Below, piece by piece: positions 1 through 16,603 of a stretch of DNA of 32,253 bases. The DNA comes from Desulfuromonas sp. (GTDB taxonomy: Bacteria; Desulfobacterota; Desulfuromonadia; Desulfuromonadales; BM501). The stretch's first letter is position 1, and every line of letters starts with the position of its first letter. The stretch lies in NCBI RefSeq assembly GCF_002868845.1, contig NZ_PKUB01000016.1, positions 97,174 to 129,426 of the forward strand, read 5' to 3'. The notes beneath the pieces were generated by a model, which was not told where the DNA came from, ran no database searches, and saw nothing but the letters and a program-made list of their open reading frames with translations. The translations under genes and the position numbers were made by a program.

Positions 1-99
1 GAAGAGGCCGAGCACGACCTCCGTCCCCTCCAGCAGATAGCCCTGTACCGGCCCGAAAAGCTCCTCTCCCAGCTCGTACTGCTCGTAGTTCTCCAGGTC
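1..99 (-). pseudogene. efpL: efpL (EF-P-like protein) 3' fragment, cut by the element and running off the window
   Basis: The minus strand encodes DLENYEQYELGEELFGPVQG followed by YLLEGTEVVLGLF, the central part of an EF-P-like protein. It aligns without gaps to residues 85-117 of the complete copy at 5680..6240, with about 10 differences in 33 residues. It continues exactly where the 5' fragment at 16349..16603 stops, so both belong to one host gene. Upstream, in the element, the frame stays open to a TAA at 154..156 and contains an in-frame ATG at 136..138. A truncated C-terminal product starting MRKVCPVL is therefore possible, but no good ribosome site precedes it. The rest of the gene lies outside the window. 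Confidence 0.9.
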
Positions 100-141
100 T
101 TTTGCGGAAACTCTCAAAACGGGACAAACCTTTCGCATGAA
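100..141 (+). repeat. Left end of the element: terminal 9-bp and subterminal 16-bp inverted repeats
   Basis: TTTTGCGGA at 100..108 abuts host efpL DNA directly, and AAACCTTTCGCATGAA follows at 126..141. Both recur in inverted orientation at the right end (16334..16342 and 16311..16326). The gap between the two motifs is 17 nt here and 7 nt at the right end, a difference of about one helical turn. These are the likely recombinase core-binding and accessory-binding sites. Confidence 0.85.
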
Positions 142-246
142 ATGCCATCGATTTTAACGGGTCATCACAGCATAGCTTCATAAGTCATTTTATTCAACAG
201 AGCTTCAGGGGAATGTGATCCGAACACATGGGCTCCACGACACGCT

Positions 247-396
247 ACACAACAGCGGTTCTTGATATGCCACACAACAGCGGTTCTTGATATGCCACAC
301 ATCAGCGGTTCTTGATATGCCACACATCAGCGGTTCTTGATATGCCACACATCAGCGGTTCTTGATATGCCACACATCAGCGGTTCTCGATACGCC
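247..396. repeat. Six tandem copies of a 25-bp repeat
   Basis: Six contiguous 25-bp units start at 247, 272, 297, 322, 347 and 372, with a partial copy after 396. The core of each unit is CAGCGGTTCTTGATATGCC. The first two units have AACAG and the rest ATCAG at one position, and the last unit carries two T-to-C changes. There are no spacers, so this is not a CRISPR array. The minus-strand core GTGGCATATCaaGAACCG is related to copies at 531..549 and 663..682, which lie in the opposite orientation. Confidence 0.95.
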
Positions 397-418
397 ACAC
401 ACGGTATCACTGCCCTCA

Positions 419-458
419 AATAGTGCAGGCTACCCTGTAATGAGTGGCCTGCACTATT
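419..458. repeat. 12-bp perfect inverted repeat
   Basis: AATAGTGCAGGC (419..430) is repeated inverted as GCCTGCACTATT (447..458) around a 16-nt loop. No T-run follows on either strand, so a classical terminator is unlikely. It lies just inside the 25-bp repeat array and may be a protein-binding site or a structural element. Confidence 0.75.
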
Positions 459-530
459 GAATGTTTGTTGGACTGGTCACGAGGCAAGACACACCGACAT
501 ACTGATGGCAATCGTATCTATGCCCCTGCC

Positions 531-565
531 CGTGGCATATTGTGAACCGCCCACGATATGCCACG
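531..565. repeat. Inverted repeat built from the GTGGCATAT motif
   Basis: CGTGGCATAT (531..540) pairs with ATATGCCACG (556..565). Allowing one mismatch, the arms extend to 14 bp around a short loop. The left arm with its continuation into GTGAACCG is repeated directly at 663..682 as CGTGGCATATCGTGAACCGG. GGCAATCGTATC also recurs upstream of each copy (507..518 and 616..627). The motif matches the minus strand of the 25-bp tandem repeat. Confidence 0.75.
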
Positions 566-733
566 GAGAACGCCCACGGAGAACGCCCACGAAGATTCTG
601 GAACTGTAGCGCCGGGGCAATCGTATCGCTATTCACAAAAGAGCCTTTTTCTTGTCCCTGTGCGTGGCATATCGTGAACCGGACCTCTTGTCTCATTCTT
701 GCCGGCTTTGCGACGCCTATAGCTGTGCAATAA

Positions 734-824
734 CGAGGACTGGTGACGAGGACTGGTGACGAGGACTGGTGACAAGAACTTGGGACAAGGACTGTCCACG
801 AGGACTGTCCACGAGGACTGTCCT
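734..824. repeat. Seven tandem copies of a 13-bp repeat
   Basis: Units start at 734, 747, 760, 773, 786, 799 and 812. The first three are CGAGGACTGGTGA, the fourth is degenerate, and the last three are of the CGAGGACTGTCCA type. The change from GGTGA to GTCCA between the two halves suggests two successive expansions. No start codon or ribosome site is associated, so phase variation of a gene is not apparent. Confidence 0.9.
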
Positions 825-860
825 CGATTATTTCATGTACTATTCTAGTGAGGAGTGGGA

Positions 861-892
861 CGAAGGAGTGGGATTCCTGTCCCACTCCTTCG
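861..892. repeat. 13-bp perfect inverted repeat with 6-nt loop
   Basis: CGAAGGAGTGGGA (861..873) and TCCCACTCCTTCG (880..892) form a perfect 13-bp stem with loop TTCCTG. The stem is strong, but neither strand has a following T-run. It lies about 200 bp downstream of the res gene on the minus strand. It could end or stabilise that transcript, or be a binding site in the left arm. Confidence 0.7.
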
Positions 893-1098
893 CATGATGA
901 AACTATAGGAAAAAATCCTCACTATTCCTCAGACAGTTTTACGTCGAGTTCCGACCTGAATGATGCAATGCTTCCGTCGCGCAAGCACTGGAAAAACTTG
1001 TTAAAGTTTTGGCCGGTAAGAAAAGTAAACTTATAACGCGTGGTACTACCTTGATTTTCTAGATGCTCGTTAACCCTGACGAAGTGATTAACCGCATA

Positions 1099-3450
1099 TT
1101 AGTTCTTTTTAAAATTCTCAGCAGAAGGTTCTCTCAGCTCTTCGTCACCCTTGATTTCTACAACTACGACCAAGTCTCCAACTTTGACAAAGAAATCAGG
1201 ACTGAACTTACCACGCTTCGGGTGCTCCCCTTTTTTCCAAGCGTAGTCTATTTCGTAGAAGCGCATCGAAGTAGACTTAAGCCAAGCATCATATTTCGTA
1301 ACGTTTTCCGCTTGGAGCAGCCCATTGATGAAACGTCTTTCGTTATCTGAATCGGCGATTGCTGCGTTCAATGGGGTCTTAAAGTCATGGCGGTTCGCAA
1401 CCTGAATTACTTTGTAACCGCTACCAGGCTCTGCTACTTCGTCGAAGAACTCAATTTGTTCATCTGCAACGCTCGAACGTGTTTGGTAAGTATAGAAGAA
1501 GGCTTTTGTGCTTCGAAGTTCGGCGGCGGAAACACTACTTGCTTGCCGTTGCTCAGTAGAAAAGGTCTGAAAACTATTGATTTTGGTGGTATAGCGAACA
1601 TTTTCAGATGTTTTCCGCCGAAGTGTACCTAAGGACTGCAGAAATTTCTGCTTCATGCTTTCAGTGGCAACATCAGTATCAAGACGAGCAAGCGATTTTT
1701 GTACGATTTTCTCTAACTTGCGTATCGTAAACTTATCGGTGTAGATAGTCCGCATCTTTGGATCAGGATCTTCAGGGTCCTGGGCTTCTTCTAGCCTGTT
1801 ATACATATCAATTGCAATTTGCCGTGGTGTATATGTTTTATGTTGAATCGTCGTCTGCCACATGTACCTTTGGCCAGTTGAAGCGCGTTCAAATTCAATA
1901 CTGACGTCCTCCGATGCGGAATCCGTCGCCAAGTCAACGTACCCCTTTGTGAAGAGGTTATATTCGCGCTCCATCGGCTTTTTAATTGATGTTGGCTCCA
2001 AGGTGTAGTCAATAGTATGAAGGTCGAAATGGTTTGGTGAGCCTTCGAGGATACGCGAGGTGAGCCTTTTTTCGATTTCTAAGATCTCATTGACGAGGTG
2101 TCTAATACGAGGTGCCCAAGAGTCATGGTTAAAGACCGTCACTTCAGGCTGTTCACCAACCCAGCCGACGGGGACGCGCAATCCACGGCCCAAAACCTGA
2201 GCAATAAGCAACTTGCTGTTGAAGGCGCGTTCCTCATGTGGGACGATTTGGAATACTCGCTTAACGTCCCAGCCCTCATTGAGCATTGATACGGCAATAA
2301 TCCATTCAACGGGGTTATCCGGCATGTCGACGCGTGAGAGCTTATAAACATCCGGGGCGTTATTGTATACAACCAAGACTTTCTCGTTGATTGTTTCTGG
2401 AGACTGCCCGGCTTCTTCAATCAAGAATGCCTTGAGTTCTTCGGCCACGTCTTTGCATTTCGCTATCGTCTGCGTAACAATAATGGTAAGTGGTTTAATG
2501 TTTCGTTTCTTTAGCTTGCTCCGCGCCTCTTCATGCTTACTGCAGACTACCTGCCACTTTTCGTTAGGGTCTCCCGTACGCGGCATCTCCGCAACATACT
2601 CAACTCTTTTGACATATTTTTCTTCCATTGCCTGACGGAGAGAATAGCGGAAAATTACGTCTGAAAAGTATTCATTCGCAACATAGCAGGTGCCTGACAC
2701 CCCGATGATATATCGAAAATCGTAATCAGGATTAGTGAGAAACTCTTTCCATTTTTTTGTTTTTGCCGCCGACTCATTGGCTACATGGTGCGTTTCATCG
2801 TTCAAAACTGCTACGCGGGAACCCTTACCTTTCAGGCTGTCGCTGATTGACGAACCGACATGCTCTAATATTGCATGATAGTTCTCTACACAGATGCTCC
2901 CTTGGGTGATGGTTTGGCTAGCATTGATAATCGATGGGGCGGCAATCTTACTCCCGACGGGAAGCTGATCCATCAAGTCCGCCCTGGACGCTAGTTGACG
3001 GAACTTTTCCAAAAGACCATCCTCAATGGTGGTGGATGGACACAAAACTAGAACCCGGTCAACTACACCCTCAGCTAAAAGGATAGCTGCCAATCCGTAC
3101 ATTACGTAGCTTTTGCCAGTTCCGGTCGCAAGGTCTAGTGATGCAGCAAGCTTGTAAGGTATTTGCAAGTGGCGCTGCATTCCGGCCCAGGACCCATAGC
3201 GCGTTTCAAGCGTAGAGTTCTCTTCAAGGTTATCCTTTGCAAGAGCGCGTAAATCGGGATACTCACCACCTAGCAGATACCGCAGAGTTGTTCGTATCGC
3301 TTCTTTCTGATATTCGCGAGTCTCACAAAGCTCTTCGATGAAATCTTCATACTTACTCTCATCCCATTTAGCCCGATCAATGGCCGGGCTAACCTTGAGT
3401 AGCAAGTCTTCGTTTCGAAAGCGTTGATTATTGGCATTTTTGGCCATCAT
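1099..3450 (-). CDS. res: Type III restriction endonuclease subunit Res (helicase-nuclease)
   Basis: This 783-aa protein is the ATP-dependent translocase/nuclease subunit that acts with the Mod protein encoded just upstream. A superfamily 2 motor domain is visible: Walker A ATGTGKS at about residues 108-114 and a DEAD-like DETHH at about 218-222, followed by SGTC. The C-terminus has a PD-(D/E)xK nuclease signature, FSPDFF then VVVVEIKGDEE, in the last 35 residues, as in type III Res subunits. It is somewhat shorter than the usual size of about 900 aa or more. The start ATG shares its A with the TGA of mod (TGATG), so the two genes are translationally coupled. The reading frame is intact. It acts in the cytoplasm on DNA lacking the Mod methylation pattern. 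Confidence 0.9.
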   Translation of the reverse strand: MMAKNANNQRFRNEDLLLKVSPAIDRAKWDESKYEDFIEELCETREYQKEAIRTTLRYLLGGEYPDLRALAKDNLEENSTLETRYGSWAGMQRHLQIPYKLAASLDLATGTGKSYVMYGLAAILLAEGVVDRVLVLCPSTTIEDGLLEKFRQLASRADLMDQLPVGSKIAAPSIINASQTITQGSICVENYHAILEHVGSSISDSLKGKGSRVAVLNDETHHVANESAAKTKKWKEFLTNPDYDFRYIIGVSGTCYVANEYFSDVIFRYSLRQAMEEKYVKRVEYVAEMPRTGDPNEKWQVVCSKHEEARSKLKKRNIKPLTIIVTQTIAKCKDVAEELKAFLIEEAGQSPETINEKVLVVYNNAPDVYKLSRVDMPDNPVEWIIAVSMLNEGWDVKRVFQIVPHEERAFNSKLLIAQVLGRGLRVPVGWVGEQPEVTVFNHDSWAPRIRHLVNEILEIEKRLTSRILEGSPNHFDLHTIDYTLEPTSIKKPMEREYNLFTKGYVDLATDSASEDVSIEFERASTGQRYMWQTTIQHKTYTPRQIAIDMYNRLEEAQDPEDPDPKMRTIYTDKFTIRKLEKIVQKSLARLDTDVATESMKQKFLQSLGTLRRKTSENVRYTTKINSFQTFSTEQRQASSVSAAELRSTKAFFYTYQTRSSVADEQIEFFDEVAEPGSGYKVIQVANRHDFKTPLNAAIADSDNERRFINGLLQAENVTKYDAWLKSTSMRFYEIDYAWKKGEHPKRGKFSPDFFVKVGDLVVVVEIKGDEELREPSAENFKKN

Positions 3451-5528
3451 CAGCTCCGTTTCTTTGACTTCGCTTGGCCTTTAGATGTCTCGGCTAGGGC
3501 AGTTGAGAACGACTTACGTGCGACGACCTCTCTCGCTTCGTTGCCATAGATATCGAGAAATACCACCATGATATTCTCACCTAGACGATCTAACTTGAAC
3601 CAAGTTTGCCATTCGTGTGCTTCTAGCTCATGTGCAAAGTGAGTTTCGTCCATATCAAAGACTGCGCCGTTGTAATTGAAGTCCACCATCAGCATCGAGA
3701 AGGTTTCCAATCCGCCTTTTGTGTCTTTGCCTCTCAGTCGAGCACGGCTTTCAAAATCCTTTATCTGCAAGCATGCTTCTTCAAGCTTTTTGCCCTTTCG
3801 CTTTTTTAAGTCAATCGACCAGTCCACTAGCGGTGGTTGGATGAAGTCAAAGCCAACAGCATCTACAGTATCATTTACTGCTGTTTCGTCGTTGGGTTGC
3901 TGAAGGGCACTGAACTCACGGGAATGCAATTCGTTAATTACAGAATATGGAATGCGCAGAGCATAGTAGCGCACGCCACCGCAATCAATGTAGTCCTGCT
4001 GGAAATCAAACACTCCTCGTGGTGCCACAATGAAAAATCGATTGCCAATTTTTTTGCCGACGGCACCATGAATATCATGAATCGTTTCCTCATCGATCCT
4101 CTGCCCAGGATTTTCCTGATGATTTAACACGAGAACACTCGCGCCCTTGAGTTTGCCGTCGAGCTTCAGCCCGCCGATGGAATGAGGTTCCTCTTTGCAG
4201 CCAAATAGTTGTAGTGCAAAAAAACGCCATTCGAACCATGGAAGTTGTTTCAAGGTCGAGAAGTCATATAGACCAGCGTTGTAGACCGTAAAGGGTTTTG
4301 GTGAAAGGCATTTTCCTTTGTTGCCGATTTTTTCCTTCATGTTTAGCATTCTCTTCTGTATTGAGTAGATAGAAAGCTTGCCGCAATCAATACCAGCCCA
4401 GCGGCGCCCGAGTTTTTCTGCTACAGCCAAAGAAGTGCCTGAACCCGCAAACGCGTCAAAGACAATATCTCCTTCAGAGGAAGATGTTTTTATGATTCTT
4501 TCCAGAAGAGATTCCGACTTTTGGGTCGGGTAGTCAAGCCGCTCAGCCGCTTGCGAATTTACCGGATTAACATCGGTCCACACATCGGAAAGTGGAACAC
4601 CTGGTAGGTCTTTAACGAACCGTTTTATCCGGGCTACTCCGTTTCTTGTATAGTAAAGCTTATTCTCTTTTGCATACTTCCGCATCGTATCAATAGGGCA
4701 TCTCCACGTACGAAAAACCCCTTTCCAGTCATATGGGTAGCCGCCACCCCTCAGACCAGTACCAATCAAATTATCATCCGCATACCTTTCCCCCTTTCGA
4801 GGGCCTTTGGTTTCAATATGCTTGTAGCGCTCAGCGATGTAAGCTTCCGTATAATCTGTGAACTGTTGGTTGAAGGTGAATTTTGATGACTTAGAATAAA
4901 GTAGCAAAGTGTCATGTACGTTTGCATAAAGGCTTGAGTCGCTATGCGCTGAAGTCCTTTTCCAGATGACTTCATTGACGAACCGTTCTTCACCAAAAAT
5001 CTCATCTAAAACCACTTTCATGTAATGAATCTTCTTGGTGTCCAGATGAAAATAAAGACAGCCGTCGTCAGCCAGAAGCTCGTAAAGAAAGACAAGTCTC
5101 TTGCGCATGAACTCTACGAACTGAGCACCTGCAATTTTATCTTGATATGCTTTTTGCTCTTTACTGCCTCGGAATTCCTGTTTAGTCGCGAAGGGTGGAT
5201 CGATATAAATAAGCTTTACCCCAGGAGAACCGTCCGCATTTACAAGTTCATTACGTTCTTTCATTCTCAACAGGCTTTTCATCGCCTGAAGGTTGTCACC
5301 GAAAATCAGTTTGTTGTGCCAGTCGGCGCTATTTTTTCCAAACGAGCTTGCAGGCTGGAGAGGGACACCCATCGTCCCACGGATAACTTCCTCTTTCCGC
5401 TCTTTACCGTGATAAACGAGTTCATATTCTTGCTTGTCGGGGGGGAAGAGTATCCTCGACCATTCTGTGGGTAGGTCTTCACCGCGTCGGAGCGCATCAA
5501 TTACCATCTGTCTAAAATCGTCTTTCAT
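3450..5528 (-). CDS. mod: Type III R-M adenine-specific DNA methyltransferase Mod
   Basis: A 692-aa site-specific DNA methyltransferase and specificity subunit. The motif order is that of beta-class N6-adenine methyltransferases: GDNL near residues 77-80, then the catalytic DPPF (about 110-113, in LIYIDPPFATKQEF), then the S-adenosylmethionine-binding FDAFAGSGTS near residue 355. Type III Mod enzymes usually have DPPY or DPPF. The target-recognition region should lie between these motifs, and the long C-terminal part probably contacts Res. AGGTGG lies just upstream of the start ATG. It overlaps res by one base. It can methylate alone or drive restriction with Res. No simple-sequence repeat is seen, so there is no sign of phase variation. 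As cargo of the element it would protect the host from phage and could also stabilise the element. Confidence 0.92.
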   Translation of the reverse strand: MKDDFRQMVIDALRRGEDLPTEWSRILFPPDKQEYELVYHGKERKEEVIRGTMGVPLQPASSFGKNSADWHNKLIFGDNLQAMKSLLRMKERNELVNADGSPGVKLIYIDPPFATKQEFRGSKEQKAYQDKIAGAQFVEFMRKRLVFLYELLADDGCLYFHLDTKKIHYMKVVLDEIFGEERFVNEVIWKRTSAHSDSSLYANVHDTLLLYSKSSKFTFNQQFTDYTEAYIAERYKHIETKGPRKGERYADDNLIGTGLRGGGYPYDWKGVFRTWRCPIDTMRKYAKENKLYYTRNGVARIKRFVKDLPGVPLSDVWTDVNPVNSQAAERLDYPTQKSESLLERIIKTSSSEGDIVFDAFAGSGTSLAVAEKLGRRWAGIDCGKLSIYSIQKRMLNMKEKIGNKGKCLSPKPFTVYNAGLYDFSTLKQLPWFEWRFFALQLFGCKEEPHSIGGLKLDGKLKGASVLVLNHQENPGQRIDEETIHDIHGAVGKKIGNRFFIVAPRGVFDFQQDYIDCGGVRYYALRIPYSVINELHSREFSALQQPNDETAVNDTVDAVGFDFIQPPLVDWSIDLKKRKGKKLEEACLQIKDFESRARLRGKDTKGGLETFSMLMVDFNYNGAVFDMDETHFAHELEAHEWQTWFKLDRLGENIMVVFLDIYGNEAREVVARKSFSTALAETSKGQAKSKKRS

Positions 5529-5679
5529 TTCCCACCTTGTGCCTGGATAGCAAAACCCTATGACTGCTATACGTAAAGCATTAATTGTTTTGGACAGTCG
5601 TTCCCGCCCTTGGCAGGGGTGAATGGACCCTGTGTGTTAAGCTGGGACCAACTTGCTCTGCCATGTGTTTCCGTCTGGT

Positions 5680-6240
5680 TCAGGCCCGCGAGATGAAGCG
5701 CCCTTCGCGGGTATCGACCTTGATTTTTTGCCCCGATTCGAGGTAGCCCGGAACCTGGATGGCGATGCCGGTTTCCAAAATCGCTTCCTTGGTCTGGGCC
5801 GTTGCGGTAGCGTTCTTGATCGCCGGCGCAGTTTCGCTGACCACCAGCTCAACTACCGAAGGTGCTTCTAGGCTGATCACCTGTTCATCATAGACGCCCA
5901 GTGTGACTTCAGTGCCATCTAGTAGATAGCCCTTCACTGGCTCGAAAAGGTCTTCGCCCAGGTGATATTGCTCGTAGCTCGAAAGGTCCATAAATACCCC
6001 TTCGTCACCATCGGAGTAGAGAAACTGCCCTTTGCGGCGCTCGAAGTCGGCTTCATCGACACGATCTCCGCCTTTGAAGGTTTTCTCCAGAACTTGGCTT
6101 GTGAGAAGGTTTCGATACTTGGTCTTGACTAAGGTGCTTCCGCCCCGCGCAGAAGGGGATTGGGAGGTGACATTGAGAACTATGCAGGGGGCGTTATCGA
6201 TCTGAATGACCAGGCCGCGTTTCAGGTCTGCTGTTGTCAT
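5680..6240 (-). CDS. efpL: Elongation factor P-like protein EfpL (YeiP), complete copy carried by the element
   Basis: This 186-aa protein has the full EF-P fold length (E. coli YeiP/EfpL is about 190 aa). The KOW-like N-domain has loop SPSARGG with Arg32 at the tip, the unmodified-arginine type of EfpL rather than the lysine of EF-P. Two OB domains follow and end in DTREGRFISRA. EfpL binds stalled ribosomes and relieves pausing at proline-containing motifs. Against the host 5' fragment (16349..16603) it has about 15 differences in 83 residues, so it is a diverged homologue and not a recent duplicate. The start ATG is preceded by AGGAGA and by a candidate promoter at 6307..6335. It lies between the third recombinase gene and the R-M genes and probably replaces the gene interrupted by insertion. 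Confidence 0.93.
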   Translation of the reverse strand: MTTADLKRGLVIQIDNAPCIVLNVTSQSPSARGGSTLVKTKYRNLLTSQVLEKTFKGGDRVDEADFERRKGQFLYSDGDEGVFMDLSSYEQYHLGEDLFEPVKGYLLDGTEVTLGVYDEQVISLEAPSVVELVVSETAPAIKNATATAQTKEAILETGIAIQVPGYLESGQKIKVDTREGRFISRA

Positions 6241-6306
6241 TATTGAAGTCTCCTATTGGGGCACCGAAGGGTGCATCTATTATCTACGGGTTTCTATTGG
6301 ATTAGT

Positions 6307-6335
6307 TTTATAGTCTCTTCTCGTCGATCATGCAA
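6307..6335 (-). promoter_or_regulatory. Candidate sigma-70 promoter for the rescue efpL
   Basis: On the minus strand TTGCAT (6330..6335) and TATAAA (6307..6312) are separated by exactly 17 nt. The -10 matches five of six consensus positions and the -35 three. It lies at the very end of the third recombinase gene, about 65 bp before the efpL ATG. A small hairpin (GCACC/GGTGC, 6261..6274) sits in the leader just upstream of the ribosome site. This would allow rescue expression independent of the recombinase operon. Confidence 0.45.
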
Positions 6336-6336
6336 G

Positions 6337-6885
6337 CTACGCTTCGCCGGCCTTCATATTTCGCAGCAGCTCTTCAACCTCGCGGATAAATCCACCTCGG
6401 TCCCCTTCGGTTAGTTTCCCCGCTGCTTCTCGCAATAATTCTATTTCTCTAACTTGTCGCGTTAAAGCTTGGAGCCGTCGCTTTTTGGCTGTTATTTCAG
6501 TATCCAAGGAATCGGCTTTTGACGCGGGTGTTTTAGCCAAAAGCCGCTTACGTTCCAGCACAACATATGGTCTCAGATACTCAATGCTTGCATGCCCCAA
6601 CCTTTCGGCAGCTTCCAACAAGATCGTGTCTACATCTATCGCTTCCCAGCCGGAGCCTTCTTTGATGATGTTGTCAATTTTTTGCTGAATGAACTTGGTA
6701 ATGAATTTAGCTCGAAGGTCATGATTGCGTGCGTCGACACCCGTCTTGCGGAACGCTTTTGTGACATATTTGGAGAACGTTTCAGAATCAAGAGGCTGGC
6801 CAGTCGTTTTGGACAAAAACACTTCCTCGGGTTCGTGATATGCCCCGCCTTTCTTTTTTTTGCGTTCGACGAGCTGTGCTCTTTC
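6337..6885 (-). pseudogene. Third tyrosine recombinase, C-terminal catalytic part after an in-frame TGA
   Basis: This reading frame is continuous with the gene at 6886..7746 and is separated from it by a single TGA (6886..6888), with no frameshift. It encodes ERAQLVERKKKKGG, then the catalytic boxes HDLR (about residue 342 of the joined protein) and LGHASIEYLRPYV, which supply the box II His/Arg, the second His and the nucleophilic Tyr. An Arg/Lys/Glu-rich helical tail follows. The joined protein would be 469 residues. A GTG at 6820..6822 could restart translation, but that product would lack box I. As read, the recombinase is split before its active site is complete, so it is probably inactive unless the stop is a sequencing error or is read through. 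Confidence 0.75.
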
Positions 6886-7746: not shown

Positions 7747-7748
7747 GA

Positions 7749-10133
7749 TCAGCTCCCCTGTGCGTGGGGTTGGTCGAAGGCATTTCTAGAGTATGAATGC
7801 ACTTCTAACTTAAGGAGATGGCCCAGTCCCACCTGTCGTTTATCGGCGTGGGCCTCTGATCTGACCGCATTAGCTGCAGCTTCAATGTCACCTACTAGGA
7901 CGACTTGCTTAACTCCACGTGTGATTGCGGTATATATCAAGGATCGATCGAGAAGGTTTCCCTTTCTGATCGGAATAATGACACGCTCAAACTGGCTTCC
8001 TTGCGCCTTGTGGACAGTAATGCTGTACGCCAATTCACACGAGTCCAGATCTTCGGCGTTGAGTTCCTGGGCGCCTGTATCGAAGTCAACCTCCATGCGT
8101 GGACTATCAGTTTCGGGTGCGGGGTCTGAGGTTGAACCATAGGCGTTGGTGACAACACCGAGGGACCCGTTGAACAGATCACGGTCCCAGTCGTTGTAAG
8201 TGAACATCACCTTGTCGCCTTCACTGAAACCTGAATCGATCCACCTCTCCAAAAAGTAATCCACGTGGTTGTACCAAACAAGAGCTTTGCGACAGCCAAG
8301 CGCATATTTTTCGTGGAAGGCCTCGTTAATTCCCACTGTCCCACAAGAGTCTTCTCCGCGGGTCGCTGACAGGATCTGAACGTCCTCTTCGCTGTTTCCG
8401 CCCAGTTTTTCGTAAAGGTCTTCAAGAATGCCGTTTTGGTATTTGCCCTCTTTATCGAAAGAGCCTAGCAATGCACTGCCTGGGGCTGGAATAACACTGA
8501 CGCCGACTCCTTTCTGGCCATCAAATTCAGGTAGTTCTGGCCACTCGCTTCTCCTGATGGCGTCGGCGACCGCCGGGATGCCTGTAGCGCCATCCTGTCG
8601 GTACACTTTGGTTAATTCAACGGTCGGAAAAATGCCACGGAAATCTTTTGTCAACAGATGGAACACCTTGCCTGGACCGATGGGTGACAACTGCTCTGCG
8701 TCCCCGACAAAGACCAGGCGACAACCAAGGGGAACCTTCTTGACGATACGGTAGGTCAGCGGTAGGTCTAGCATCGAGGCCTCATCGATGATAATTGTCG
8801 GCTTTCCGTCGAAGTCTTGCTCTTTGCTCAGAAAACCGGCGATGGTGATCGCATGGCGCTTGGTTGTTGTTGCCATACGTCGAGAGGCCCGACCGCTAAG
8901 GGCCATTTGGATCACCCTACCCCCAGCATCCTCAATACATTTATGAAGACATGTTAAAACTGAGGTTTTTCCTACACCGGCTCCCCCAGTAATGACTGAC
9001 ACCTGGTTCTCTAGGGCGAGTTCTACGGCTTTTTTTTGTTCATCCCCTAGGTCGTACCCTTCTTCGCCCTCAAATTCTCGTATAACACCCCTGATTCGTT
9101 CCTTATTCGCCGCATTCTCCCCAAATAATTCGTACTGCTTGATCTGAGCGAGCGCCGCCAATCCTTCCGCGACGGCTTTTTCCATGAGGAAGGCCCCCCT
9201 GGCCTGCCAGAATCGGTCATTGGTTAGGAATGCCCGTGAAGCAAAATTCTCCTTCAGGGTGCGCTCAGCGAGTTTTTCATTGCCAAGCCTCTTTTTGAGT
9301 TCATCGAAAAGGGTGTCCCTGTCAACAATCGTTGATTTCTCATCGTACTGGCAGAAGAGCGAGTCAACGATTGCGGCGTGCTGGCGCCTTACATCATCAG
9401 GCGGAATCATGAAGACGGACCGGGCAATGCCGTCGACAAGTTTCCAACCCTTTCTTTTCTTGTTGTCTTTTTTTTTCTCGTAGCTGTTTGTGAAGGCGAC
9501 TAGCCGATAAGGGTCGGCCGTGACAATTTCCTTGGCTTTGTCACCCCAGCACTCATATATTTTGCGTCCCATACGCACGCCCATCTTCTCTCCTGCACGG
9601 AGCGAATCCAGCCAAGACACAACCTCGCCATAACCCATCTCGGCCCATGCTTCAATAGCTGTTCGGGCGACCTTCTCTGCGTTGCGGACCTCAGCCACCA
9701 TCATGGCGTCTTCAAGCGCATGGAAATCGCCTGAGTTTAGGATGTCATGGAGATCTGTCCCAAGGTTCGCCCATAGCCGTTCAGCATATGCTTCGCCTAG
9801 TCCAGCGAACCTTGGGTTATGGGTGAGCAGGTCGACAATGTGATCGCCGCGGGGACGGAAGAGGAAGGCCTGTTGAGCTGTAATCTGCTTTTTGCCTTTA
9901 TAGGTTTCCCAGGAACCGATGATGCGCCATATCTCGCGATCGTTGACACATGATTCGCGGCCAATGGCTTTGTAGTCAGCCCGGACAGTGATGGTTTTGC
10001 CTGTCGTATTGAGGTCTTTATCCAAGGTCTCCGCAAGGAAGATTGCTCCTTTGCCCACAACCCCACTCCTTGGCCATGTGAGTCTTTTTACGCGAAGTAA
10101 AACATCGACCATAGCACCCATCAGCAAGTTCAT
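7749..10133 (-). CDS. RecD2-like superfamily 1B DNA helicase carried by the element
   Basis: A 794-aa ATP-dependent 5'-3' DNA helicase of the RecD/RecD2 type. The N-terminal third has helix-hairpin-helix-like segments (FAGLGEAYAERLW and following) and a winged-helix-like region. The motor has Walker A GGAGVGKTS near residue 381, Walker B IIIDEAS near 447, motif III VGDAEQLSP near 474, and C-terminal motifs HKAQGSQF (about 707) and YTAITRG (about 733). RecD2 proteins act outside the RecBCD complex in repair and fork processing. Here the gene sits two bases upstream of the third recombinase gene and in line with the two other recombinases, so a role in element processing is a reasonable inference. 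The ATG at 10133 has no clear ribosome site; internal ATGs at residues 5 and 8 are alternatives. Confidence 0.85.
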   Translation of the reverse strand: MNLLMGAMVDVLLRVKRLTWPRSGVVGKGAIFLAETLDKDLNTTGKTITVRADYKAIGRESCVNDREIWRIIGSWETYKGKKQITAQQAFLFRPRGDHIVDLLTHNPRFAGLGEAYAERLWANLGTDLHDILNSGDFHALEDAMMVAEVRNAEKVARTAIEAWAEMGYGEVVSWLDSLRAGEKMGVRMGRKIYECWGDKAKEIVTADPYRLVAFTNSYEKKKDNKKRKGWKLVDGIARSVFMIPPDDVRRQHAAIVDSLFCQYDEKSTIVDRDTLFDELKKRLGNEKLAERTLKENFASRAFLTNDRFWQARGAFLMEKAVAEGLAALAQIKQYELFGENAANKERIRGVIREFEGEEGYDLGDEQKKAVELALENQVSVITGGAGVGKTSVLTCLHKCIEDAGGRVIQMALSGRASRRMATTTKRHAITIAGFLSKEQDFDGKPTIIIDEASMLDLPLTYRIVKKVPLGCRLVFVGDAEQLSPIGPGKVFHLLTKDFRGIFPTVELTKVYRQDGATGIPAVADAIRRSEWPELPEFDGQKGVGVSVIPAPGSALLGSFDKEGKYQNGILEDLYEKLGGNSEEDVQILSATRGEDSCGTVGINEAFHEKYALGCRKALVWYNHVDYFLERWIDSGFSEGDKVMFTYNDWDRDLFNGSLGVVTNAYGSTSDPAPETDSPRMEVDFDTGAQELNAEDLDSCELAYSITVHKAQGSQFERVIIPIRKGNLLDRSLIYTAITRGVKQVVLVGDIEAAANAVRSEAHADKRQVGLGHLLKLEVHSYSRNAFDQPHAQGS

Positions 10134-10216
10134 ATGATTTGTTCGGTACAGAAAGTTATTGGCTCTGTTAGCGCATTGAGTTGGCAGTGTAACTAAGCGG
10201 AAACTAAAGACCTTTC

Positions 10217-10255
10217 GTCGTTACGCTTTTTGCGTTACGCAAAAAGTGTAACGAC
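10217..10255. promoter_or_regulatory. Near-perfect long palindrome between the small gene and the helicase gene
   Basis: TCGTTACGCTTTTTGCGT (10218..10235) is repeated inverted at 10237..10254 with one mismatch and a single central base; an extra G-C pair closes the ends. A weaker inverted repeat TCTGTT/AACAGA lies at 10267..10283. No T-run follows on the minus strand, so this is more likely an operator, a recombinase or helicase site, or an RNA hairpin separating expression of the two gene groups than a classical terminator. Confidence 0.6.
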
Positions 10256-10298
10256 AAGAACGAAAATCTGTTTCGCGAACAGAGCTAAATCATCTGTC

Positions 10299-10775
10299 TC
10301 AATCCCATGGTAACCTGATGTTGCCGTCATTCAGCTCGGCGTCTTTGTAGCCCAGTGTTGCCAGCTTTTCATTGGCTTCATCTCGCTCCAGAGTTAGAGT
10401 CGCATTTCGTTGCTCAAGTTTCAGAATGCGGTTGTTTAGATCGCGTACCCGCTGGTCGTCCCCCCCAGATTTCCTGGAGTTTCCGCCCCACTCGGAACCG
10501 GACTTACCTGCTATTTTCAAGTCGTAGTCATCGACTAAATTTGCAAAGTCGGAGTCGACCTTAACTCGCTGGCCATCAACAGTTTTTGTCGCCTTCTGAA
10601 AGGCTGAACGTGCGAAGCCACACTCTTGCGCAACCTCGTCTCGCTTGATCGTTCCGTCAGCTTTCAGAGGTAGGTCGCCATTGCGGAGGCCTTCCTCTAG
10701 TCGCTCCTTTAGCTTCGCTAGATTCTGCGCCTTGATCTCTTGCTTCGATAGGCCTTGGGGCTTATTGCTCATCAT
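10299..10775 (-). CDS. Small coiled-coil protein of the element (TnpC-like in position), function unknown
   Basis: A 158-aa soluble, charged protein. The N-terminal part (about residues 8-75) contains GTIKRDEVAQECGFARSAFQ, which resembles a helix-turn-helix. The part from about 108 to 142 is a heptad-like coiled coil (LNNRILKLEQRNATLTLERD). Size, position after two large tyrosine recombinases, and this HTH-plus-coiled-coil plan recall the TnpC-type accessory protein of Tn554-like elements. I cannot confirm homology by eye. A strong GGGGAGGAAAGG precedes the ATG, and a second in-frame ATG follows directly. It is probably a DNA-binding accessory factor for integration or for regulation of the operon. 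Confidence 0.7.
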   Translation of the reverse strand: MMSNKPQGLSKQEIKAQNLAKLKERLEEGLRNGDLPLKADGTIKRDEVAQECGFARSAFQKATKTVDGQRVKVDSDFANLVDDYDLKIAGKSGSEWGGNSRKSGGDDQRVRDLNNRILKLEQRNATLTLERDEANEKLATLGYKDAELNDGNIRLPWD

Positions 10776-10830
10776 TATCCTTTCCTCCCCTGTGGGATCG
10801 AAGCAGAGTGGTATTTTTCAGGGAACGTAT

Positions 10831-11367
10831 TTAAACACTTGCCCGTTGTAGATCCTCTTCCATTTCCTTGTATCTGCGCCTTAATCTATCGTTTTCGCGA
10901 TCTAAACTTTCATTTTCAGCTTCTACCATGACAACTTGGTTCTGGAGGTCTTGGGTAAGAGTTTCCTCGGCCTTTAATAGCGCCTTCAGCTCTTTCACGA
11001 CATCTGAGGTTTTAGTGGTAGAAAGCCTATTGAGGGCCTTTATCAGCTCTACGGCCTGTTTTACATGCTTAACGTTCCATTCTTTATTCAATGAAGCGGG
11101 TGAACCTATTTTGAAGATTCCTTTGATGGTTTTACCGCGCACTTTCACTTCCAATTCGGGATCATGCCAGACTCGAAAAGCTTCTGTGCCGGATAAAACT
11201 TTCTTGTTCTTCTTAGTTGTCCACCCGGGCCAATTGTAGCCTTCTGGAACCCCTCCTTCATTGAGCCATGTTTTCAGGACAAGCACCTTGTCTTTGATGT
11301 GCCGGGTAGTTTGGTCTTTCTTTTCCTGACTGATCTGGGGCGTCTGTCCTGCTTCTCTACGAGCCAT
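10831..11367 (-). CDS. Small element protein with C-terminal coiled coil, function unknown
   Basis: A 178-aa basic protein. Residues 20-100 form a compact region rich in Trp and Lys (WLNEGGVPEGYNWPGWTTKK), and residues 120-175 are a long coiled coil (VEAENESLDRENDRLRRRYK). The start codon overlaps the end of the 744-aa recombinase gene by 11 bases and has AGGAGG five bases upstream, so the two are translationally coupled. I do not recognise a family. Its place between the recombinases and the 158-aa protein suggests an accessory subunit of the recombination complex. A comparison with the third protein of Gamma-Mobile-Trio elements would be worth making; I cannot claim it from the sequence alone. 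Confidence 0.7.
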   Translation of the reverse strand: MARREAGQTPQISQEKKDQTTRHIKDKVLVLKTWLNEGGVPEGYNWPGWTTKKNKKVLSGTEAFRVWHDPELEVKVRGKTIKGIFKIGSPASLNKEWNVKHVKQAVELIKALNRLSTTKTSDVVKELKALLKAEETLTQDLQNQVVMVEAENESLDRENDRLRRRYKEMEEDLQRASV

Positions 11368-13591
11368 TATCTTCCTCCTGCCAGAGGGCGGCGATGCCCC
11401 TTCGGAACTTTTTGGCCCTTTCGGACTGCCAGTTCCTCATGAGAGGTGGATTGCTTTTGTTGTTAGCGACCGTCTCGCATTTCAGTGCCTGCATTTCCCA
11501 ATACTGCCTAAAGCTGTCGTCTGCCAAAAATCTCTCGCAGTGGGCGCAGTTTGCGGGGTCGGAATGACTTAATCGTGTAACCTTTGCCCCATCAACTGAC
11601 TTTAGGCAACAGGCCGTTTCAATGGGTTCATGCGTCTCGACGGCACAAAAGCCCCATGGCAATGGGACAATGTGCGTCTGGTGCTTTTCTAGGTAGCGTT
11701 CGATGCGGCGCTTAACATTTTGTTCGGTCAGAACGACAATCTGCTTGCGTGCAACTGCTGTAAGCTTGTCAATGGTTTTCCCGAATCGCTTTGCAAATTC
11801 ACCAACATACCCACTACGATGAAACGCTACATCATTTACTATCCGATAGTTTTCTTCTGCATTGGCTTTTTCGAACACTTCGCCGGGCCTTATCTCGGTG
11901 ACATAATGCATTGTTCTCTCGACTGAAGCATGGCGGAGTTGATTTAGGAGCGCTTCAAGCGACTTGAGACGATCTGAATATCTCCACATATAAAGCATGG
12001 CGAAGAATCTCCGGAACTGATGCGGTTTAAAGTCCCAGAAGGAGCCATCATCAAGAGGAGACACCTTCACGAAGGCTGCAAATCCCCTAAGCCCCTTACC
12101 CATCTCAAATGTCTTAACGCCATTGTTCTCGCCCTCTTCAGCCCATCTTCCTTGAAACCTAAAAAGGTAGGACTCCCCTGTTTTCTCACGGGCCATCTGG
12201 CTGAGTCGTTTAAGAACTTCTACCGCGCGGACAACAACTTTTGGACATGGAGTCTTGTCCCAGTTCTGAACCGTTTTTTCAATCCAGGTTTCGATCCATG
12301 CCCCATCATTCTCGAACGATATACAGTCTTCTTTGCTTGTTAAAATCTCTATGTGCCGCCGTGCAGTAAAGGCACCTATTACAATTGAACAAGCTGCGGG
12401 AAGAAGGACGTAGAGTGCATCAAAAAGACTCAGCCCATCGGAATGCATAAGCGCCGGATCAACGGGCCAAGGGCTTCCCTTGCCTTGGCTAGTGGGCCTA
12501 TATTTTGCGAAGGCCTTTCGAATAAAAACCAAGCGCTTTGTAACTAGATGTGGAATGCCTTGATGAGGGCCAAACTTTTCTCTGAATTCCCTTGAGGCGG
12601 CATCGTAAATATCTTTAAGAGCAAAGAGATCGTCGCCATAAAAAAGAACCCAGCGGATCGCGCGGTCGATTAATTCTGCTGCCTGTTTCTCTGGGATTGT
12701 TCCCGTGCGGGCCCCTTCACGGCCCAAGGCATGAGCCCGTTTTTTAAGCGACTCTATGCTGCCAAAAGGCATAAAAGTAAGTTTGTCGTCGACATATTTC
12801 CTGTGCTCCCATAGGTCGAGCCACGCCCAGAGTGTATCTTCAATTGAAGCGCTAGTAATGACTTGTATTTCAGGTGGCTCAGCCATAATCTGAGTTCCAT
12901 CGGGAAGCGTGTCTAGATACTTTTCCTGATTTGCTGGCTTTATCTTAAGGCCCTGCTCAAGCGCAATTTCGACACCCTTCCACGTGATCAAGGTGTCGGA
13001 TCTGAGCATGTAGGGCTCACATCCAAACTCTTCACAAAAGCTAGATGCAGCAAAATGGCCTGCCGCTGTAACTGGAAAAGCATCTCCTTGTGATCTGACC
13101 TTTTGAACATGTCTATCAAACCGTTCGTGAAGGTTCATTAGTCCGCTGATTCCGTATTTGACTTCGGCGAGAAAATCATCCAAGTCCTTGAGCGTGAGTC
13201 GACCGAAACTCTTGATTCTTTTGAGGACCATCCACTGGACGAGACTTATTAGCTTCTGTACTTTGCCTTTATGAGTAGCTGGTGATGTGATGTTCGAATA
13301 CGCCCTGCTTCGCATGTGGTAAGCAATCAACTGCAAAGATTTAAGGAAGGAGGCATTCTCTGGGTCGGTCAAATAGGTTCCGTCTGAGAGTAGTTGCTTC
13401 CAGCGGATTTTCTGCGGGCGGAGCGGCGAGCCAACCTTGTTCCCCAATATCCACTCGTCACTATGTAGGGCGCTGGCTAGCCAGGCCGGCTGTGCTAGTG
13501 TGTCAAGCCATGGTCGTTGGCTTCTGTTTAGGTGTTCGTCGGCTGCCGGAAAGGGCAGAACTTGTGCGAGATTTGTGTTGTTGTTTGACAT
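11357..13591 (-). CDS. Second tyrosine recombinase of the element (744 aa), catalytic residues intact
   Basis: A large phage-integrase-family protein. Box I Arg is in FTARRHIEI (about residue 410), box II His-x-x-Arg in FKPHQFRRFFA (about 520), and the second His and Tyr nucleophile in LRHASVERTMHYV (about 553). The N-terminal 400 residues are much longer than in a typical integrase of 350-400 aa and hold core-binding and arm-binding helices. The C-terminal 190 residues contain CC and CAHC cysteines that may bind zinc. AAGGGGG just before the ATG overlaps the stop of the upstream 868-aa gene, 11 bases away, so the genes form one operon. It is the only one of the three recombinases with a complete visible active site in one uninterrupted frame. 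Confidence 0.88.
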   Translation of the reverse strand: MSNNNTNLAQVLPFPAADEHLNRSQRPWLDTLAQPAWLASALHSDEWILGNKVGSPLRPQKIRWKQLLSDGTYLTDPENASFLKSLQLIAYHMRSRAYSNITSPATHKGKVQKLISLVQWMVLKRIKSFGRLTLKDLDDFLAEVKYGISGLMNLHERFDRHVQKVRSQGDAFPVTAAGHFAASSFCEEFGCEPYMLRSDTLITWKGVEIALEQGLKIKPANQEKYLDTLPDGTQIMAEPPEIQVITSASIEDTLWAWLDLWEHRKYVDDKLTFMPFGSIESLKKRAHALGREGARTGTIPEKQAAELIDRAIRWVLFYGDDLFALKDIYDAASREFREKFGPHQGIPHLVTKRLVFIRKAFAKYRPTSQGKGSPWPVDPALMHSDGLSLFDALYVLLPAACSIVIGAFTARRHIEILTSKEDCISFENDGAWIETWIEKTVQNWDKTPCPKVVVRAVEVLKRLSQMAREKTGESYLFRFQGRWAEEGENNGVKTFEMGKGLRGFAAFVKVSPLDDGSFWDFKPHQFRRFFAMLYMWRYSDRLKSLEALLNQLRHASVERTMHYVTEIRPGEVFEKANAEENYRIVNDVAFHRSGYVGEFAKRFGKTIDKLTAVARKQIVVLTEQNVKRRIERYLEKHQTHIVPLPWGFCAVETHEPIETACCLKSVDGAKVTRLSHSDPANCAHCERFLADDSFRQYWEMQALKCETVANNKSNPPLMRNWQSERAKKFRRGIAALWQEEDNGS

Positions 13592-13602
13592 TGCGTTCCC
13601 CC

Positions 13603-16209
13603 TTAGATGGCAGATGGTATTCCGGCGAACTTTGCACCTTCAACTTCAGTCAATGCTTCTTGGTAAACCCCTGACGTCCCCCCCTTCATCAATTTCGCCA
13701 GGGCAGTGTCGTGCAAGGTCATGTAGGGAAGCCAGATATTCTCCCAGTCAGCCGGAGAGGTCGCTGCCAGGTCGTCACTATGTTCCTGTAGATACTGGCT
13801 AAATAAGATCATGTCTTTTATGTTTTCAACGGTCGCGGGAATAAACATGCTTTTGCATGAATGGCAGCTTTCTAGTTTGTCGCATTGCGTACCTTCTTGT
13901 GTCCCTGGCTGCACTCCTGCTTTCGGGTTGAGGCACATAACTCCGAGGCCAGTACGGTGAGCTTCACTTAGAGCCTCTTCCCATTTTTCCTTTGACATTC
14001 CAAGGGCTTTGTAGCCGTTCTTGATGTCGGTGATCAGAATTGCTTCAAGAAGGTTCTGGAATTTGCGGATCGACTGCACGGCCATGATGCTTTGTGTGTA
14101 TTTTCGGTTGTAACCGCTCGTCGTGTCCTGATGCTTGTGATTTGCTATCGTTTGGCCCACCAGGAGTCGACCTTCCTTCTTGATGGTTGCGTCTAAGATG
14201 ATGGTACTTCTGATGAATTCCATTTTCATGGCGATTTTTTCTAGTTCGGAATGACGCTTCAGAAGCTTTTTGAAAGATTTTGTTCGGGTTGCCTTATTGA
14301 AGACCCGCATTGGTTTTGATGGATAGAGACGGGAGATGAAGAGATGATTGTGGACCTTGTCAAGGCCGCTATCCCTGTGGGTGCCATATGCTTCGCTTTG
14401 AAAAGGTCCGGTCGGCCCATGTTTTGCCATTCGCCGCAGCCGTGAGGTCATTTCCTCTATCATTTCAATGGCCCTTACGCTGCTGATGCGGTTTCTGTCG
14501 TTTACTTGGACAATCTCCTGAATGAGGGCATGACCTGCTCTTGGTTTCCAAGTAGAGAGGATTTTTTCATTTGGATCGTCCGTGTCTTGAAGGCATGGGT
14601 ATGGAAGATCGTTTATGGAATCAACATTGCCTCCTGTGTCAACGAGCAAGATCACCATGGCGGCGACGTACGCATCTTTGTGAGGCTGCATCATCGGGAG
14701 AATGTCCGTTCGGCTTGCAACGCTCATGAAGAACTCTTTATTGAAGCTGTGCAGCTCCCAGTGTTGGCTGGTCGGAAGGATTCCATTCCAACGATTCTCG
14801 ATTAAGCAGAGGTAACGTGAGAGGGCAACGTCTTTTGGAGTTTCCTGGTTTCTATAAAGGATTCTGGCAAGCTTTGTGTTGGATCTGTTTGAGGCCTGAA
14901 GCCACTCTTCAATGAGGGGGAGGATGCCTTTTTCATAAGAAAGGTCGCAGGACTTGAGGAGTTTCTGTCCCGCCTGGTAGGTCTCGTACCATTTTAGGAG
15001 TTCATCCTCGGCGCATCGCCTCAAGCTGGAAAGGCGCTTTTCGGTGAGGTCGGCTATATGCTTGAGATGTTCTTCCTGCGATGCCGTAATGTCAAAGCCG
15101 TCGGCTGCCAATGTTTTTAAGAAGTCATTTTTTGTTGCCTCTACTATTTCATCGCTACTGACATTCTTTTCTAGCAGGGGCTCGACAATTTTCTTTAATT
15201 CCTTCTCCGAAAAGGTAGTCGCGGGAACCTCTGCGAGGCTCTTCTTGGGGCGGTTGTTTTTATTGGCTTTCCAGCCCCGGCCTGGCTGCTTAAGGTCAAT
15301 TGGCTTTGGGAGTACCCCTTCGCGGTCAAGCGCTCTGAATAGGCGGTTGATATTCCCAAAGTAGTTTTGTAGTACCCCGCCAGTCCACATCCCTGAGTGC
15401 AGCACATGCTCACGAAATCGAGTTAGCACCATCTCCATTTCTTCATGATTTGGCTTTTCTCCATCCATTAGCTTTCGACTGATATTTAGATAGCCTGGTG
15501 CGCCGTTGCTGGCCTGTTCGATCCAGAACTCAAGAAACGCGCAGATAGAAAAGAATGAATTCTGTGTTGTGGCTTTCGCCTTGCTTTCGAACTCTTTTTT
15601 GAAGACCTCTACAATTTCGAGGATCAGCTCACTATCTAGAGGCCTGTACTTTTCAAAAGAATAAAACCGCTTGTGCTTGTCGATGTTGGCAACGTAAGGA
15701 CTGTTGTCTGGGTGGGTGGGAAGCTTTGCTAAGATGCGATCGACGCGCTCAACGTGACGGCGAAAAGTTTTATTCCATCCGTTGCGACTATTCTTGACAT
15801 TGATCGCTTTGGCCATCTCGTTAACGCTGAGGTAGCCAAACTGGTTCAGCGGCAACGTTCCTTCTTTTGCGTGCGCACGAAGCCAGCCACGAAGACGCTT
15901 GCATATCTCTCGGGACGAGGCGGGAATAGGCCTGAGCTTATTGTGCTGATATTTCAGTTGATTGTCGGCGGCGAATAAGATCTCTTTAAACAGGGCGGGC
16001 ATTGTGGATTCCTTCATGGGCGCACCGAAGGCCTCAAACATGCCACGTCTGTGTAGTGTTAGCTTTTGACTGACGGTTACTGCTTTGTTTTTTGCGATGT
16101 CTTCGAGGTAACCAAAAAGGAGGGGGACAAGTTCGGCGTCCTGCTTGCAGGAGGGCTTTCTTTGATGAAACTGCTTTCTTAGTGCCTCAACATCAATGGT
16201 GTACTCCAT
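13603..16209 (-). CDS. First, largest tyrosine-recombinase-like protein of the element (868 aa), atypical active site
   Basis: The first gene inside the right end, preceded by GGAGGGA and a candidate promoter. The C-terminal half has an integrase-like layout. A segment LLVDTGGNVDSI near residue 525 occupies the usual box I place but has Asn where TGLR-type proteins have Arg. EFIRST near 663 is box II-like with Glu instead of His. NHKHQDTTSGYNRKY near 690 carries the box III-type His and Tyr. A cysteine-rich tail (CLNP, then CDKLESCHSC, about 757-783) resembles a zinc site. The N-terminal 450 residues are helical and unrecognised. It probably forms part of the recombination complex, perhaps in target recognition, with the 744-aa protein as the catalytic partner. 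The family call rests on these motifs only. Confidence 0.78.
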   Translation of the reverse strand: MEYTIDVEALRKQFHQRKPSCKQDAELVPLLFGYLEDIAKNKAVTVSQKLTLHRRGMFEAFGAPMKESTMPALFKEILFAADNQLKYQHNKLRPIPASSREICKRLRGWLRAHAKEGTLPLNQFGYLSVNEMAKAINVKNSRNGWNKTFRRHVERVDRILAKLPTHPDNSPYVANIDKHKRFYSFEKYRPLDSELILEIVEVFKKEFESKAKATTQNSFFSICAFLEFWIEQASNGAPGYLNISRKLMDGEKPNHEEMEMVLTRFREHVLHSGMWTGGVLQNYFGNINRLFRALDREGVLPKPIDLKQPGRGWKANKNNRPKKSLAEVPATTFSEKELKKIVEPLLEKNVSSDEIVEATKNDFLKTLAADGFDITASQEEHLKHIADLTEKRLSSLRRCAEDELLKWYETYQAGQKLLKSCDLSYEKGILPLIEEWLQASNRSNTKLARILYRNQETPKDVALSRYLCLIENRWNGILPTSQHWELHSFNKEFFMSVASRTDILPMMQPHKDAYVAAMVILLVDTGGNVDSINDLPYPCLQDTDDPNEKILSTWKPRAGHALIQEIVQVNDRNRISSVRAIEMIEEMTSRLRRMAKHGPTGPFQSEAYGTHRDSGLDKVHNHLFISRLYPSKPMRVFNKATRTKSFKKLLKRHSELEKIAMKMEFIRSTIILDATIKKEGRLLVGQTIANHKHQDTTSGYNRKYTQSIMAVQSIRKFQNLLEAILITDIKNGYKALGMSKEKWEEALSEAHRTGLGVMCLNPKAGVQPGTQEGTQCDKLESCHSCKSMFIPATVENIKDMILFSQYLQEHSDDLAATSPADWENIWLPYMTLHDTALAKLMKGGTSGVYQEALTEVEGAKFAGIPSAI

Positions 16210-16274
16210 CCAGAAATCCCTCCAAAAAAATGCATTTTAGGTACAGAAAAAAAGCATGAATCTTTCGTATGGAG

Positions 16275-16303
16275 ACAATAGCAAATTTCGTTAGTGATAT
16301 CAA
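16275..16303 (-). promoter_or_regulatory. Candidate promoter of the recombinase operon
   Basis: On the minus strand TTGATA (16298..16303) and TATTGT (16275..16280) are 17 nt apart, about 65 bp before the ATG of the 868-aa gene. The -35 starts eight bases inside the subterminal repeat, so recombinase bound at the end could repress its own operon. Confidence 0.45.
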
Positions 16304-16310
16304 GCATTCA

Positions 16311-16348
16311 TTCATGCGAAAGGTTTTCATATGTCCGCAAAACATATA
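16311..16348 (-). repeat. Right end of the element with terminal repeats and 6-bp coupling sequence
   Basis: The inverted copies of the left-end motifs are at 16311..16326 (16 bp) and 16334..16342 (9 bp). CATATA (16343..16348) then separates the element from host efpL, which resumes with CATGAACACC. If the element circularised, the joint would read TCCGCAAAA-CATATA-TTTTGCGGA, a perfect 9-bp inverted repeat around a 6-bp spacer, as expected for a tyrosine-recombinase crossover site. Confidence 0.85.
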
Positions 16349-16603
16349 CATGAACACCCCGTCATCCCCGGTAGCGTACAGGAACTGCCCCTTGCGCTTC
16401 TCGAAATCGGCCGCGTCCACCCGCTCGCCGGACTTATAGGCCTTGTCGAGCACCTGTCCGGTCAGCAGGTTGCGGTACTTGATCTTGACCAGGGTGCTTC
16501 CCCCGCGGGCGGAGGGAGACTGGCTGGTGACGTCGAGGACGAGGCAGGGGGCGTTGTCAAGCTGAATGACGAGGCCGCGTTTCAGATCGGCGGTGGTCGG
16601 CAT
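16349..16603 (-). pseudogene. efpL: Host efpL 5' fragment (codons 1-85), interrupted by the element
   Basis: This encodes the complete N-domain of EfpL, with loop SPSARGG, and the start of the first OB domain, ending GDDGVFM. It continues with Asp86 at position 99 on the other side of the element. The start ATG at 16601..16603 has GAAGGAGA upstream. It is GC-rich like the flanking genes, unlike the element copy. It is divergent from efp across an intergenic region of about 170 bp. The host promoter is intact and now points into the recombinase operon. Without the OB domains the product cannot work as an EF-P-type factor. Confidence 0.92.

Follow-up and report, generated by a model that had tools for sequence, protein, structure and literature searches.

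A 16.2-kb mobile element in Desulfuromonas sp. was found to split the host gene efpL, which encodes a translation factor, and to carry a complete, diverged efpL of its own. The element lies in a stretch of 32,253 nucleotides (contig NZ_PKUB01000016.1, positions 97,174 to 129,426 of the forward strand), which is called the window below and whose own numbering is used for its features. We favour, with a probability of roughly 0.86, the reading that this is a site-specific element with three recombinase-type genes, similar to the known SE and GInt elements, which inserts into a conserved motif of a single-copy gene and carries an independently evolving replacement of that gene.

The element runs from 100 to 16342 and is bounded by matching inverted ends. 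An earlier, sequence-only reading of this DNA had let it extend to 16603, but the last part proved to be 6 extra bp (16343-16348) followed by host efpL. The host gene is on the minus strand, with its 5' part (codons 1-85) at 16349-16603 and its 3' part at 1-99, from where it runs on past the window's left edge. The two flanks were joined by skipping the N and the duplicated 12-bp overlap of a scaffold gap, and the result was an uninterrupted EfpL of 187 aa whose two parts meet between codon 85 and codon 86 (GVFM^DLENYEQY), exactly where the split had been placed before. This gap lies precisely at the left edge of the window, within efpL (G000:C16, about 97173, L072), and consists of a single N and the 12-bp duplicated overlap GAAGAGGCCGAG.

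The efpL carried by the element (5680-6240, minus strand) is complete and preceded by its own ribosome-binding-like site. Its product of 186 aa is 79% identical to host EfpL, and the 15 differences in 83 residues previously counted against the host 5' part agreed with the alignment. It is the only intact efpL in this genome, where the other three of four matches were the two fragments of the host gene and the ordinary EF-P. An EfpL-type gene was present in 54 of 58 relatives, usually single and alongside one ordinary EF-P. Both the host and the element proteins have the loop SPSARGGST, which fits the published definition of EfpL (PMC11611912). The NCBIfam EfpL model NF003392 stayed below its cut-off (180.5 bits vs 216), and the best model for the element gene was the general NF011175 'elongation factor P' (PRK14578; 329.7 vs a cut-off of 301), and what justifies the name efpL is therefore the loop together with the paralogy. 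The proposed tree of element and chromosomal EfpL, which was weakly supported, placed the element copy apart from the host gene and the host gene, at moderate support, with other families (89/93), while the neighbour of the copy changed between runs; the highest identity of the copy was 83%, to L043 from another family. The G+C content was 48.3% in the element and 62.5% in the right flank, and 54.5% in the element efpL compared with 64.5% in the host efpL. That the copy is a duplicate of the host gene was ruled out by the divergence together with the different G+C content.

Target and replacement gene pairs in related elements

A search of 277 class genomes with the profile of TR2, the 744-aa tyrosine recombinase (TR) of the element, yielded strong elements in the window and in six more places. 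All seven split a gene and hold a complete homologue of the gene that they split, which is a different one in each case. Besides efpL in the window, cut at GVFM^DL, the target in G068 is pfkA, cut after GGDC (GGDC^PGLN), and the copy is at the far end. The copy stands right after the integrase gene in G175, where recQ is cut at VAFG^MGID, and in G159, where the target is an M48/Ste24-type protease gene; in G247, rnhB is cut in DEAGRG (DEAGR^GSA) and the copy is beside the integrase gene. In G118, recJ is cut at HGDYD^VDG and the copy is within the core operon, the two halves being 108 kb apart in a composite island. In G225 the cut through mobB falls within the Walker A motif GTGK^TT (GTGK^TTLLE), and the copy is by the far end on a separate contig. 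EPLFN^KFEP was also among the insertion motifs read in class relatives. The results showed that the insertion points are strongly conserved, often catalytic, motifs, and that host target and element copy share about 34-78% protein identity across the class elements.

When each target was compared with the cargo of each element, the resulting 7x7 matrix was diagonal, with full-length matches in 7/7 positions on the diagonal and 0/42 off it; the sole off-diagonal signal was one partial helicase-domain match. Random matching of targets to elements would yield the full diagonal once in 5040 cases. The sequence-only reading had named two findings that would speak against it, and neither turned up: no relative was found in efpL without an efpL copy, and no element carries another's target at full length. 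The search for pairing among relatives of the 744-aa recombinase, which it had also suggested, supported its view of an element that hits a conserved gene and pays with a copy of its own, a copy which would functionally rescue the host.

Between the recJ halves of G118 (C1:956050-1065967), arsenic/copper-type genes and other cargo were observed, as an island grown inside the replaced gene. The recQ element of G175 also holds an RNA pseudouridine synthase gene (L007 7875-8657), and a resident homologue of this gene was not found interrupted nearby. One match, in G176, was degenerate and inside ordinary genes and was dropped, and in G460 a neighbouring NADAR gene that seemed interrupted proved complete.

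The pairing was also found beyond the class. On the alphaproteobacterial plasmids of Novosphingobium KA1, Mesorhizobium loti NZP2037 and Sphingobium yanoikuyae pF2, an ardC-like gene is cut at its zinc motif (HE^LGH) by a GInt-like four-gene core, which is followed by a complete ardC-like gene; the arrangement in pF2 was taken from annotation and partial matches. The alphaproteobacterial plasmid relatives L015, L106 and L111 have the four-gene layout of GInts (378-592-608-148 aa). Two alphaproteobacterial genomes have thyA as the target. The cut in G891 is at DVFLGVP^FN, and just within the element there is another, complete thyA that differs from the split one. The element ThyA of G858 is 82% identical to that of the G891 element, and a host 3' thyA fragment stands at the far end. 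These two copies are akin to each other and far from the interrupted host genes. The same target with kindred copies, to which the host genes are unrelated, therefore indicated that the copy travels with the recombinases or the element. In total, at least 11 related elements with such a pair were found, with eight targets besides efpL and thus nine targets in all. Degenerate-pattern scans of IMG/VR and GTDB contigs gave just two genome loci, G068 being one, and no relative from viruses; none was seen in phage records either. In G971 (L125-L126, concatenated 32594-46535), a 2.6-kb stretch with genes of 295 and 399 aa is near-identically repeated 11 kb apart, within and beyond a related element.

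Ends, insertion site and genes of the efpL element

Both ends of the element open with TTTTGCGGA and have an exact 16-bp repeat, AAACCTTTCGCATGAA, in common; the left terminal inverted repeat region covers 100-141 and the right one 16312-16342. On the left border the host shows its central 6 bp (94-99, minus strand), which read GACCTG in the sense of efpL. The surrounding GVFMDLE(N/S)YEQY is almost invariant in the relatives of the order with a readable site, and all of these relatives have GAY-CTN where the host has GACCTG; therefore the 6 bp on the other border, TATATG in the efpL sense (16343-16348), are foreign to the host, as in the 6-bp footprint of SEs. Such a border pattern was read in three elements, those of the window, G068 and G175.

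Near the left end, a 25-bp repeat, GATATGCCACACATCAGCGGTTCTT, is present in tandem in about six copies (239-413), and inverted partners of it, GTGGCATATYGTGAACCG, are found at 532-550 and 661-681. This array could be a candidate for binding a recombinase or a replication protein. Seven 13-bp direct repeats resembling ACGAGGACTGGTG lie in the non-coding left end at 720-833. An Rfam search gave no match.

Read from the right end, the minus strand encodes TR1, TR2, a coiled-coil protein, a VPA1267-like protein, a RecD2-like helicase, the Xer-like TR3, efpL, a methyltransferase and a ResIII-type protein. TR1 (868 aa, 13603-16209) has a tyrosine-recombinase fold with an incomplete catalytic set and no Pfam or NCBIfam match. 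Only R667 and Y700 are invariant in it, and the position of the first arginine is taken by N528, in a TGxN motif of three aligned members; without this arginine TR1 resembles the Tfp/GinC type. TR2 (744 aa, 11357-13591) keeps its catalytic residues, with R412, K439, H524, R527 and Y563 invariant in the seven relatives. Of the pair of recombinases called before, the 744-aa protein was thus borne out by the R-K-HxxR-Y set in all relatives, whereas the 868-aa protein departs from that set. Profile searches against solved structures returned no match for TR1 and only marginal or weak ones for TR2 (HP1 integrase, XerA), and the AlphaFold2 models were unusable (mean pLDDT 40 for the 868-aa and 44 for the 744-aa protein).

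The next core proteins are a coiled-coil protein of 178 aa (10831-11367), with homologues in all six other elements, and a protein of 158 aa (10299-10775) with a weak match to the VPA1267 family model NF040697, which matched more strongly in the relatives G159, G247 and G068. They are followed by a RecD2-like superfamily 1 helicase (794 aa, 7749-10133), 46% identical to its G068 homologue. TR3, an Xer-like tyrosine recombinase (6337-7746), was delimited by tblastn with the intact G068 homologue. A frameshift in this gene, hinted at by the list of open reading frames, was ruled out, and the frame is continuous with a single in-frame TGA. Because of this stop, the copy of the element in the window may be immobile now. 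TR3 is thus broken while the element efpL is intact, as if the element were fixed in place. The cargo comprises an N6/N4 DNA methyltransferase (3450-5528), similar to the Mod subunit of type III systems, and a ResIII-type helicase/restriction subunit (1099-3450), all of these genes being on the minus strand; the pair resembles a type III restriction system. Two adjacent giant minus-strand open reading frames, of 2021 aa (18467-24532) and 1887 aa (24554-30217), lie to the right of the element.

Proposed course and alternative explanations

In the reading that we favour, TR1, TR2 and TR3 would most likely release the element as a circle, by copying or by excision, and the circle would insert at a 6-bp crossover with conserved codons on either side, in this case GVFM^DL of efpL. 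As these codons are conserved by the need of the protein, the target would be available in many species. The insertion would destroy the resident gene, and the copy carried by the element, which comes from another lineage and stands beside the core genes or near an element end, would be expressed and supply the lost function. Insertion would thus be cheap, and the host would become dependent on the element.

The copy might instead be an efpL-like gene acquired as ordinary cargo, independent of the insertion site. The element does have other cargo, a restriction-modification system, and the ribosome-binding-like site of its efpL would suit such a gene; however, this is contradicted by the diagonal matrix, in which all seven class elements hold their own target and none holds another's, and by the repetition of the pattern in the ardC-like and thyA groups, and we regard chance cargo as very improbable. 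Hardly credible at all is an origin from two ancestral efpL copies, of which the element hit one and the other ended inside the element by rearrangement. Although island rearrangement is common, the inverted ends enclose the second copy, which adjoins the core operon, and this layout was seen again in unrelated hosts.

Two other explanations concern the role of the copy. If it were a decoy giving site immunity, or a stretch of homology for recombination, its product would be irrelevant, and the DNA of the copies has indeed diverged where the insertion falls (six elements and recJ). The frames are nevertheless intact and complete, and with the protein identities given above the copies are too diverged for efficient homologous recombination. 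Site recoding for self-immunity was likewise rejected, since the codons near the site have changed no more than the rest of the gene (0.33 identical near the site vs 0.36 elsewhere, P=0.39), and a decoy or anchor is quite improbable. The copy could also be a variant enzyme whose changed properties favour the element, for example through altered RecJ, RecQ or EfpL activity, beyond paying for the damage. This fits with the derivation of the copies from other lineages and with the action of the recQ, recJ and rnhB products on nucleic acids, but pfkA, mobB, thyA and the M48 protease gene have no obvious tie to element biology, and the factor shared by all is the conservation of the target motif; such a takeover is unlikely.

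Several observations weigh against the reading of an element that replaces its target. A relative in Aquibium carbonis (L014) splits comM, and the genome yielded no complete version of this gene. No target and copy pair was seen in the examined sequence of G460, G610, G985, G971, G916, G751 and five plasmids, where the boundaries were not pinned down, and the 5' half of the host thyA in G858 was not found. The TATATG on the border of the window element is unlike an efpL site, and therefore, if the footprint rule of SEs holds, the previous insertion of this element was not in efpL. Apart from these, a match in G018 has a GInt-like gene order and looks like a plain GInt, with no copy seen in it, and the comM element was observed to carry imuA and imuB as cargo (L014 5690-7100).

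Relation to known systems and significance

One published precedent exists for the principle, SE-6283 in Vibrio, which sits in bcp and carries bcp (PMC9345347). The at least 11 further elements make the arrangement more general than the earlier reading knew, and it looks like a general survival strategy of these elements. Among the close relatives it holds as a rule; further out it recurs but is not universal, as comM shows. Like SEs, the window element has three recombinase-type genes, imperfect inverted ends and an insertion within a coding gene, its 6-bp border pattern resembles their crossover footprint, and the imperfect inverted terminal motifs C and C' of SEs are matched by its end motif and the exact 16-bp repeat. 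The gene orders differ, however, being intA-tfp-intB-srap in SEs and TR1-TR2-coiled coil-VPA1267-like-RecD2-like-Xer here. The footprint of SEs has the foreign 6 bp on the intA-distal side (PMC10214605), whereas in the window they are TR1-proximal, the opposite side if TR1 is taken to correspond to intA. SEs were reported from Gammaproteobacteria only, with one published target pair compared with nine targets here.

GInts share with the element the three recombinase-type proteins, a small protein and site specificity. Their ginABCD genes, three integrases and a small protein at one end, differ from the six core genes of the window, in which the Xer-like gene is last and to which RecD2-like and VPA1267-like genes are added. 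GInts are reported to lie at gene ends or between genes with direct imperfect repeats of 10-11 nt, and no replacement gene has been described for them; on reading the window borders, no direct repeats of 10-11 nt were seen, without a dedicated two-border search. Gamma-Mobile-Trio (GMT) elements combine a mobile trio that includes recombinases with defence cargo, and in V. parahaemolyticus the VPA1267 family is encoded close to a GMT trio. No match to GMT-named NCBIfam models (GmtX/GmtY/GmtZ) was found among the core proteins tested, in a library not checked for holding such models. As its gene content and order set the family apart from both SEs and GInts, it was filed as neither; in its working it is like an SE that pays with the gene it hits.

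Integrative and conjugative elements, integrative and mobilizable elements and phages regenerate the gene end when they insert at tRNA genes, dusA, guaA, rpsI and others (review PMC5704250). They likewise avoid the cost of inserting in a conserved gene, but do so by rebuilding the target's end via the attachment site, whereas the window element abandons the target and supplies a whole foreign gene. Synthetic 'home-and-rescue' gene drives also combine a conserved-gene target with a rescue copy; these are engineered, use a nuclease and carry a recoded copy of the same gene, while the site in the copies studied here showed no sign of special recoding. In the open-licence literature, no paper was found that states a general rule of target-replacing elements. 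The element type with three recombinases, similar to SEs and GInts, is already known, and what is new here is the generalisation that the choice of target and the replacement gene travel together.

The evidence leans towards a widespread natural 'insert-and-replace' class, in which the targeting recombinases and the replacement gene would form one co-inherited module. This module would move jointly to new conserved targets, of which at least nine were found here, would allow elements to insert within core genes and would lock them in, since the copy that they carry would become the one functioning version in the host. The usual view of mobile elements is that they keep away from conserved genes or mend just a gene end, but here complete core genes, which encode a translation factor, a glycolytic enzyme and enzymes of DNA repair and nucleotide synthesis, are disrupted and exchanged for foreign counterparts. 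Looking for a split gene with a complete homologue between its halves finds such elements and reads their target sites. If general, this arrangement would be a route for the horizontal swapping of core genes and a way for an element to become indispensable, and it would leave split 'pseudogenes' and xenologues that confuse annotation and gene trees.

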